NCBI GenBank assembly: GCA_025964795.1
Contig: JAOPYC010000090.1
Location: forward strand, 1-64,000
DNA from: Marmoricola sp.
GTDB taxonomy: Bacteria; Actinomycetota; Actinomycetes; Propionibacteriales; Nocardioidaceae
Length of the DNA stretch: 64,000 bases
Direction: 5' to 3'
Shown here: one piece after another, positions 41,675 to 42,605 of the stretch
Position numbering within the stretch: the first letter of the stretch is position 1
Layout of the letters: every line of letters begins with the position of its first letter
Notes under the pieces: model-generated
Told to the model about the DNA's origin: nothing
Database searches by the model: none
What the model saw: the letters and a program-made list of their open reading frames with translations, nothing else
Position numbers and translations under genes: made by a program

Positions 41675-41759
41675 GACACAAGGACGATCAGCTCGGATCG
41701 TTCGACGCCGGTTCAGGCGGCGCCACAGGTCGGGCACCAGCGAGCTGATCGTCCTTGTG
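41675..41759. repeat. repeat copies 1 and 2 at the 3' end of the DUF559 gene
   Basis: Copy 1, GACACAAGGACGATCAGC plus TCG (41675-41695), lies just outside the gene. Copy 2 is its exact reverse complement over 19 nt (CGAGCTGATCGTCCTTGTG, 41741-41759) and lies inside the gene, encoding part of its last 17 residues. Together they form a 19-bp perfect inverted repeat around the stop codon, with a 45-nt loop. Confidence 0.85.
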
Positions 41760-42531
41760 GCTCGATCACCGCCGTGACCGTCTCGCGAACGTCGTCCGCG
41801 TCGAACATCACCGGCTTCCAACCGAAGCGCAGGACCAAGTGGCCCTCACACAGGAAGGCGTTGTAGCGCTTCAGGTCACGGGCGAAGGCCACCGCGTCCG
41901 AGTGGAACTCGAAGGACTCGGCCTCGAGCACAATCTTCCTCCCCCGGTCCACGAGGTCGGCGCGGCCGATGTTCCCGACCCACACCTGTGGCTCGAAGCC
42001 CGCGCCGGCGATCTCGATGACGAAGGAGCGCGAACGACCGTTCCTGGGCAGTCTCGCGCAGGCGAGCAGGAGCTCTGTCTTGCTGACACCCTCGCGCAGG
42101 GCGGAGTCCACCACGGTCAAGGCCACGTCGAACGGGAGCAGCCGCACGCAGTCCAGGACGGTGCGGACCCTGGAGGTGGCGCTGGCCTTGAGCTCCTCCG
42201 GAGTGACCTCACCCCAGCGCAGGTCGACCCCGATGCGCCGGTCGGCGGTGACGTTGCGCCCACGTGGCACCAGGACCTGAGGTCGTTCGGGCGGCAGCTT
42301 CACCGGCCATCCCCAGTGGCGGGCCGCGGACAGCAGCGACAGGCATCCGGACAACCGGGTGGCTGCGGCCGCGTGGTCGGTGACGTCCGGGAGCGAGTAG
42401 AACCCGCGTCCTGACCTGACCAACCGGCCTGCCTTCACCGCTCGCCGGATCTCCCCTCGTGTCGCGACGACCCGAAGCACCGAGTAGCGGGCGATCCCAC
42501 CCGCCTCGAGCACCGCCTGCACCACGTCCAC
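41713..42531 (-). CDS. DUF559 (Vsr-like) endonuclease-fold protein with AbiEi-like N-terminal helix-turn-helix
   Basis: 272 aa. Residues 1-50 (AGGIARYSVLRVVATRGEI, GRLVRSGRGFYSLPD) match the winged helix of AbiEi-type antitoxins. Residues ~185-250 have a DUF559/Vsr-like nuclease core: GRADLVDRGRKIVLEAESFE, FARDLKRYNAFLCEGHLVLRFGW. The Asp and Glu of that block are candidate metal ligands. The tail WCPTCGAA adds a CxxC. Usually annotated as endonuclease-domain or AbiEi-like protein; no toxin partner is present. It is bracketed by 18-bp direct repeats. Confidence 0.75.
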   Translation of the reverse strand: MDVVQAVLEAGGIARYSVLRVVATRGEIRRAVKAGRLVRSGRGFYSLPDVTDHAAAATRLSGCLSLLSAARHWGWPVKLPPERPQVLVPRGRNVTADRRIGVDLRWGEVTPEELKASATSRVRTVLDCVRLLPFDVALTVVDSALREGVSKTELLLACARLPRNGRSRSFVIEIAGAGFEPQVWVGNIGRADLVDRGRKIVLEAESFEFHSDAVAFARDLKRYNAFLCEGHLVLRFGWKPVMFDADDVRETVTAVIEPQGRSARWCPTCGAA

Positions 42532-42587
42532 ACCGGCACTTCACCGGCTGTCGCCCGGGTCGGCAAACGGCTGTCCACAGCCCGGGT

Positions 42588-42605
42588 GACACAAGGACGA
42601 TCAGC
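42588..42605. repeat. repeat copy 3 upstream of the DUF559 gene
   Basis: GACACAAGGACGATCAGC, identical over 18 nt to 41675-41692 and in the same orientation, 57 nt upstream of the DUF559 start. Copies 1 and 3 flank the gene as direct repeats 913 bp apart. Confidence 0.85.

Follow-up and report, generated by a model that had tools for sequence, protein, structure and literature searches.

The 64,000-nucleotide stretch of Marmoricola sp. DNA analyzed here (the window) contains, on the minus strand at 41713-42531, an AbiEi-like plus Vsr-like (DUF559/MTES_1575) gene with an open frame of 272 codons (272 aa), which is single copy in the genome. Its neighbours, read from sequence alone, are acetyltransferase-like and DUF1905-like, and an AbiEii nucleotidyltransferase was not apparent in the window. 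The 18-mer GACACAAGGACGATCAGC occurs exactly at 41675-41692 and 42588-42605, both on the plus strand, and an inverted copy with one mismatch lies at 41744-41761 on the minus strand. These are the only matches in the window at up to three mismatches, compared with 0.06 expected from dinucleotide shuffles, and none of 100 shuffles reached three. The three repeat copies at or near the gene that had been reported in a first-pass annotation were thus confirmed in position, far above shuffle expectation. The annotation had also taken two of them for equal direct-repeat brackets; the copies are real, but their layout is that of inverted doublets with fixed spacing, complete on the 3' side and represented by one arm on the 5' side.

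On the 3' side, a complete inverted doublet (41675-41761) straddles the stop codon of the gene. The gene-distal arm CACAAGGACGATCAGCTCG at 41677-41695 (plus strand) and the arm at 41741-41759 (minus strand) are perfectly inverted over 19 nt and separated by 45 nt, the arms being GACACAAGGACGATCAGC(TCG) at 41675 and 41741, and the stop codon falls within the 45-nt interior. The inner arm lies in the coding end and is read as encoding PQGRSA(R), after which the frame continues with WCPTCGAA to its stop. The CxxC tail noted in the first-pass annotation is conserved in two orthologues, and it is encoded inside the 3' doublet. On the 5' side, the single arm GACACAAGGACGATCAGC at 42588-42605 (plus strand) is read as the surviving gene-proximal arm of a second doublet whose distal arm was lost; this arm sits where homologues have the gene-proximal arm of an upstream doublet. 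Between this arm and the gene, a DnaA-box-like sequence, CTGTCCACA, lies at 42571-42579. Its TGTGGA precedes the start codon by 48 nt, a position shared with homologues; in the genus this core typically lies 47-49 nt before the start. The motif TT[GA]TCCACA, which we take to be a DnaA box in actinobacteria, was found with at most one mismatch within 110 nt before the start of 30 of 67 homologues; the control rates were 1 in 72 for the starts of other genes and 12 in 1340 for random positions. Across Actinomycetia, for example at loci L150, L152, and L204, it lies about 48-60 nt before AbiEi-DUF559 start codons.

The proposed Vsr-like core and AbiEi-like region were borne out by the predicted fold of the intact orthologue in a related genome, G009 (locus L019; pLDDT 89.5), which consists of a wHTH (residues 1-49), an AbiEi C-terminal-like region (51-176) and a Vsr-like nuclease domain (177-280). 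The AbiEi-like part matched S. agalactiae AbiEi (6y8q; Z 10.7, 122 residues, 3.2 A) and Rv2827c (1zel; Z 6.7), and the nuclease domain matched NGO0050 (3hrl; Z 13.3), the homing endonuclease I-Bth0305I (3r3p; Z 12.6) and Vsr (1cw0; Z 11.6) over 91-98 residues. Profile searches with 21 proteins gave MTES_1575 in 16, DUF559 in 12 and AbiEi_4 in eight, and no named NCBIfam family above its cut-off. The wHTH and AbiEi C-terminal-like region are shared with the antitoxins of AbiE type IV toxin-antitoxin systems, and DUF559 genes with an AbiEi-like region are usually taken for toxin-antitoxin remnants; what sets the DUF559 protein apart from those antitoxins is its nuclease domain and its link to dispersed sites. 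Similarly, the nuclease domain resembles the Vsr/EDxHD nucleases in fold and profile matches (Pfam DUF559 and MTES_1575), but here it is joined to an AbiEi region and associated with palindromes, and no intron, intein or methylase context was seen.

The window protein itself differs from its homologues by an in-frame deletion of 21 codons between F170 and V171 (42021-42022, minus strand), with loss of the NPFES.LRA helix, a conserved part of the nuclease domain. The FES motif, with the conserved acidic residue of the first nuclease helix, is present in homologues and absent from the window protein; by position its E would correspond to the acidic residue that comes first in the EDxHD set. In the structural model the helix is gone, and pTM is 0.57 compared with 0.85 for the intact orthologue. 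Because the 21 lost residues include the conserved FES motif, the window copy is probably nuclease-dead.

Full-length orthologues were identified by tblastn in G009 (58% identical) and in a further genome, G003 (54%), and both share the C-terminal peptide RS.R.C.TC..A and the terminal doublet of the window gene, the outer arms having changed in a complementary way. Elsewhere in the genus, AbiEi-DUF559 genes have doublets of other sequences in this position, often together with a second doublet of the same arms and spacing before the start codon. Within the class, a homologue was present in 87 of 158 genomes. At an IR score of at least 12, a doublet lay over the stop codon of 27 of 67 DUF559 genes, the controls giving 2 in 64 for the ends of other genes and 1 in 268 for random positions; about 40 of the 67 homologues were without a strong doublet by this test, which counts against the reading preferred below. 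An upstream doublet with the same arms and spacing was found at 21 of about 68 loci, in a tally made by hand, which required at least four letters more than the best match elsewhere in the locus (for example, 37 of 38 letters compared with 19 elsewhere). Doublet arms differ between gene clades, and across 33 loci they track protein relatedness (Mantel r about 0.26; reached in 0 of 2000 permutations), as would be expected from shared descent alone or from coevolution; this coupling was assignable to no single domain of the protein. The association, in which lineage-specific palindromes bracket the same type of nuclease gene across actinobacteria, is solid.

By the first-pass annotation's own terms, an 18-mer confined to this locus would have refuted its reading, but the 16-mer core CACAAGGACGATCAGC recurs elsewhere in the window's own genome (G000), with eight exact and four one-mismatch matches over eight contigs. 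The matches comprise inverted arm pairs 66-67 nt apart with unrelated interiors, together with single arms. Pattern searches, on which all doublet copy counts rest, allowed lengths of 60-82 nt and found six of these family-1 doublets in G000, eight in G009, three in G003 and five in G010, always with a core of 68-70 nt; the 20 remaining genomes of the genus had none, and a reversed-pattern control also gave none. Among 342 genomes of the family, only these four contain more than one copy. Shorter-arm matches outside them in the family-wide search were single and of scattered spacing and were read as chance, as were arm matches outside Marmoricola (Rhodobacteraceae and others). The single arms in G000 were considered as independent sites and, by inspection, are better read as decayed doublets, a decay that a dead nuclease in this genome would fit.

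The inner arm ACGATCARYTCG is common to all four species. The outer 8-10 nt of the arms are also largely complementary, yet species-specific (CACAAGG; CCCGAACG; GTGC.GGAC), indicating that the two arms changed together within a genome. At one orthologous place behind a TadE-like gene, where the DNA is 74% identical, the doublets of G000 and G009 bear the outer arms of their own species. The centre of the doublet holds a weak motif, CAGGCG.GG, at roughly 18 nt from either arm; pairing of the family-1 interior is near chance, and no Rfam family reached its threshold, the only match being a sub-threshold one to sbcD. Interiors of copies within one genome are saturated with differences, which suggests either that copying is slow or that the copies are held by selection for another reason. 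This saturation, and the persistence of family-1 doublets in G010 without a family-1 gene, count against a REPIN-like reading. At one locus of G009 (L102; C1:2823300-2829300), a family-1 doublet adjoins a tRNA-like gene (GCCCGTAGCCCAACAGGCAGAGGCACC...), and the counterpart in G010 is a family-3 doublet.

Two further families were likewise found dispersed in genomes that carry their own gene. Family 2, ACATGCGAATGT-N41-ACATTCGCATGT, has the arms of DUF559 genes in G006, G008, G016, G018 and others; it is dispersed in 10 of the 342 genomes, and every copy is exactly 65 nt long under a pattern that allowed 54-84 nt. G000 holds 11 copies, nine with perfect arms and two with one mismatch, and no family-2 gene was found in its 92%-complete assembly, which again counts against the preferred reading; a candidate for a decayed family-2 gene on contig C138 was not convincing. 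Conserved positions in the family-2 interior (G.G.C....G) are dyad-symmetric, with neighbours that vary freely on each side and are not stem-like, and this suggests recognition of duplex DNA rather than of a stem. Family 3 has arms, GCGGACACAAGT, that also belong to the second of the DUF559 genes in G010; it numbers 10 copies in G010 and seven in G003, and its doublets are only 69-71 or 80-81 nt long. Since 10-11 bp is one helical turn, this step suggests paired proteins on one face of the duplex. In G008 (L127; C37 14930-15155), two family-2 doublets lie 161 nt apart and have the same left part of the interior (CGCTGCCGGGGCTGCTGAGCGCC), the clearest sign of local doublet copying.

With genes called by a simple codon-composition method, about 28 doublet places were convergent, 20 tandem and few divergent, mostly close behind gene 3' ends. 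A site at a ROK gene is filled in G009 and G010 and empty in G003 and G000. At the typA site, G009 and G003 have the gene, and the allele in G010 is only about 45% identical and has other arms; the flanks in G009 and G010 are 94-98% identical (L105, G009 C1:3458300-3464800; L183, G010 C2:452600-455000). The difference would reflect either an allele swap or very fast divergence. In G000 only 106 nt remain between the same typA flanks, and the G000 orthologue lies in the window instead. An empty site thus exists at typA, whereas the lack of one in any strain would, by the first-pass annotation, have refuted its reading. Two further intergenic sites have different palindromes in the sister species G009 and G010, one of the G010 palindromes belonging to its third family. 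Classical IS/MITE elements combine terminal inverted repeats with a target-site duplication; no clear duplication was evident at the two best empty sites (ROK and typA), and no insertion event within a species was caught, both points against mobility.

In REPIN/RAYT systems, conserved inverted ends at a set spacing enclose a variable middle, and the resident nuclease gene lies between the same ends (PMC3116915; Bertels and Rainey, 2011). The present repeats are alike in being dispersed inverted doublets with a conserved arm, fixed spacing and a less conserved interior; in being intergenic and largely behind genes, with lineage-specific arm families and single arms as remnants; and in having an associated nuclease gene flanked by the same arms. 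They differ in that the gene encodes an AbiEi plus Vsr-like protein rather than a tyrosine (Y1/HUH) transposase, the defining RAYT enzyme (Y1_Tnp, PF01797) giving no match at E <= 1 in the window's genome with 10 of 14 controls positive; in copy number, which is about 3-11 per family and genome and not hundreds; and in the 3' doublet, which overlaps the coding end of the gene. CGTC-tagged REPs are likewise palindromic repeats mostly behind genes and without an assigned RAYT, but they have stems of 8-9 bp and loops of 4-5 nt, occur mainly in Alphaproteobacteria and have no assigned enzyme (PMC3733652).

We consider it somewhat more probable than an even bet (roughly 0.55) that the locus belongs to a REPIN/RAYT-like system built on an unrelated nuclease, with mini-palindromes and a resident DUF559 gene. 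The sequences themselves show doublets bracketing the gene, arms specific to each gene, a fixed spacing, dispersed copies that lack a gene, and sites present in one species and absent from another; mobilisation of the doublets by the enzyme is what we infer. The 18-mer would then be the arm of a REPIN-like palindrome with two inverted arms at a fixed distance (core 68-70 bp) and a variable interior, and the DUF559 gene would be the resident nuclease gene of the family, combining an AbiEi-type DNA-binding region with a Vsr/EDxHD-type nuclease. Binding of the arms would fall to the AbiEi part, probably in pairs along one face of the DNA, given that spacings in one family differ by 10-11 bp; the Vsr-like domain would nick or cut at the arms; and through repair or replication doublets, and now and then the unit that includes the gene, would be copied elsewhere, usually to spots immediately downstream of a gene's 3' end. 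The window copy would probably be a decaying resident that has lost the catalytic-region helix and part of its 5' doublet. The earlier suggestion of a small selfish or mobile cassette, with its own repeats as the sites of the protein, gains from the same-arm doublets on both sides of the gene in relatives, from the dispersed gene-less doublets and from the occupied and empty sites. It needs correction in that dispersed copies are without the gene; cutting, insertion or binding would be putative roles of the protein. Copying of the gene cassette together with its repeats was rejected, as the protein occurs once in the genome.

The strongest rival is a binding-site network, in which the protein is a DNA-binding regulator or chromosome organiser, the doublets are useful to the host and selected, and the gene is bracketed through self-regulation. 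It owes this rank to arms that are near-perfect around saturated interiors and to G000 and G010, which keep doublets whose gene is missing. Known AbiEi-family proteins bind inverted repeats in their own promoters (PMC7319586). Moreover, the inner conserved positions are dyad-symmetric and not consistently paired, as for duplex recognition, the spacing classes are 10-11 bp apart, and the window protein is still an open frame after loss of the nuclease helix. However, doublets lie mostly just behind gene 3' ends and not in promoters, the stop codon of the gene itself lies under a complete doublet, and site sets differ between close species and can be empty. We regard a network as unlikely, though deserving serious weight. 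A homing-like replacement is a weaker candidate still. Here the nuclease would cut foreign or allelic intergenic palindromes, repair would swap the hairpin, or the hairpin plus gene, and spread would occur by gene conversion between strains and not by transposition. The two G009/G010 intergenic sites with different palindromes between conserved flanks, the divergent typA alleles within near-identical flanks, and I-Bth0305I among the nearest catalytic folds would agree with this, but independent insertion at favoured spots behind genes would explain the shared positions as well, and homing by itself gives no copying route for copies dispersed over non-homologous sites within a genome. We consider such replacement improbable. 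Homing endonuclease genes interrupt their own recognition site or sit in an intron or intein; the gene here has full doublets on both sides and not a split site. Ordinary transcription terminators or 3'-end RNA hairpins would account for complementary arms behind genes and between convergent genes, but they are very improbable given 41-57 nt between core arms, discrete lengths, the same arm at unrelated sites in one genome, species-specific outer arms and the lack of any Rfam family at threshold.

Beyond this locus, we suggest tentatively, at somewhat less than even odds, that a new and widespread class of bacterial mobile palindromes has AbiEi-Vsr (DUF559) proteins as its enzymes. A Vsr/EDxHD nuclease unrelated to HUH transposases would bind paired duplex arms and cause doublets to be copied or replaced, and the DnaA-box-like motif ahead of the start codon might link this to replication. 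The open-licence literature held nothing relevant on DUF559 with palindromes or on REPINs in Actinobacteria, and the partnership of nuclease and mini-repeat looks undescribed. To our knowledge, REPINs have so far been tied to RAYT transposases. If the REPIN-like reading is true, a second, unrelated nuclease family has lineage-specific doublets, the REPIN life style arose more than once, and a very common "unknown" actinobacterial gene, DUF559 with an AbiEi-like region, gains a function. Ready test systems would then be available in genomes that combine an intact gene with a few doublets each.

Other palindromes were encountered in these genomes. In G009 (L188; C1:1152300-1153500), close to the position orthologous to L109, a CCCCATGTAACGCGG...CCGCGTTACATGGGG palindrome, for which no gene with such arms was found, takes the place of the family-1 doublet of G010. 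In addition, downstream of the ROK gene (G009 C1 near 917424-917550) lies a palindrome of the CCCGGACGTCCGGG type that recurs many times in G009, G010 and G003 and probably represents another dispersed repeat family.
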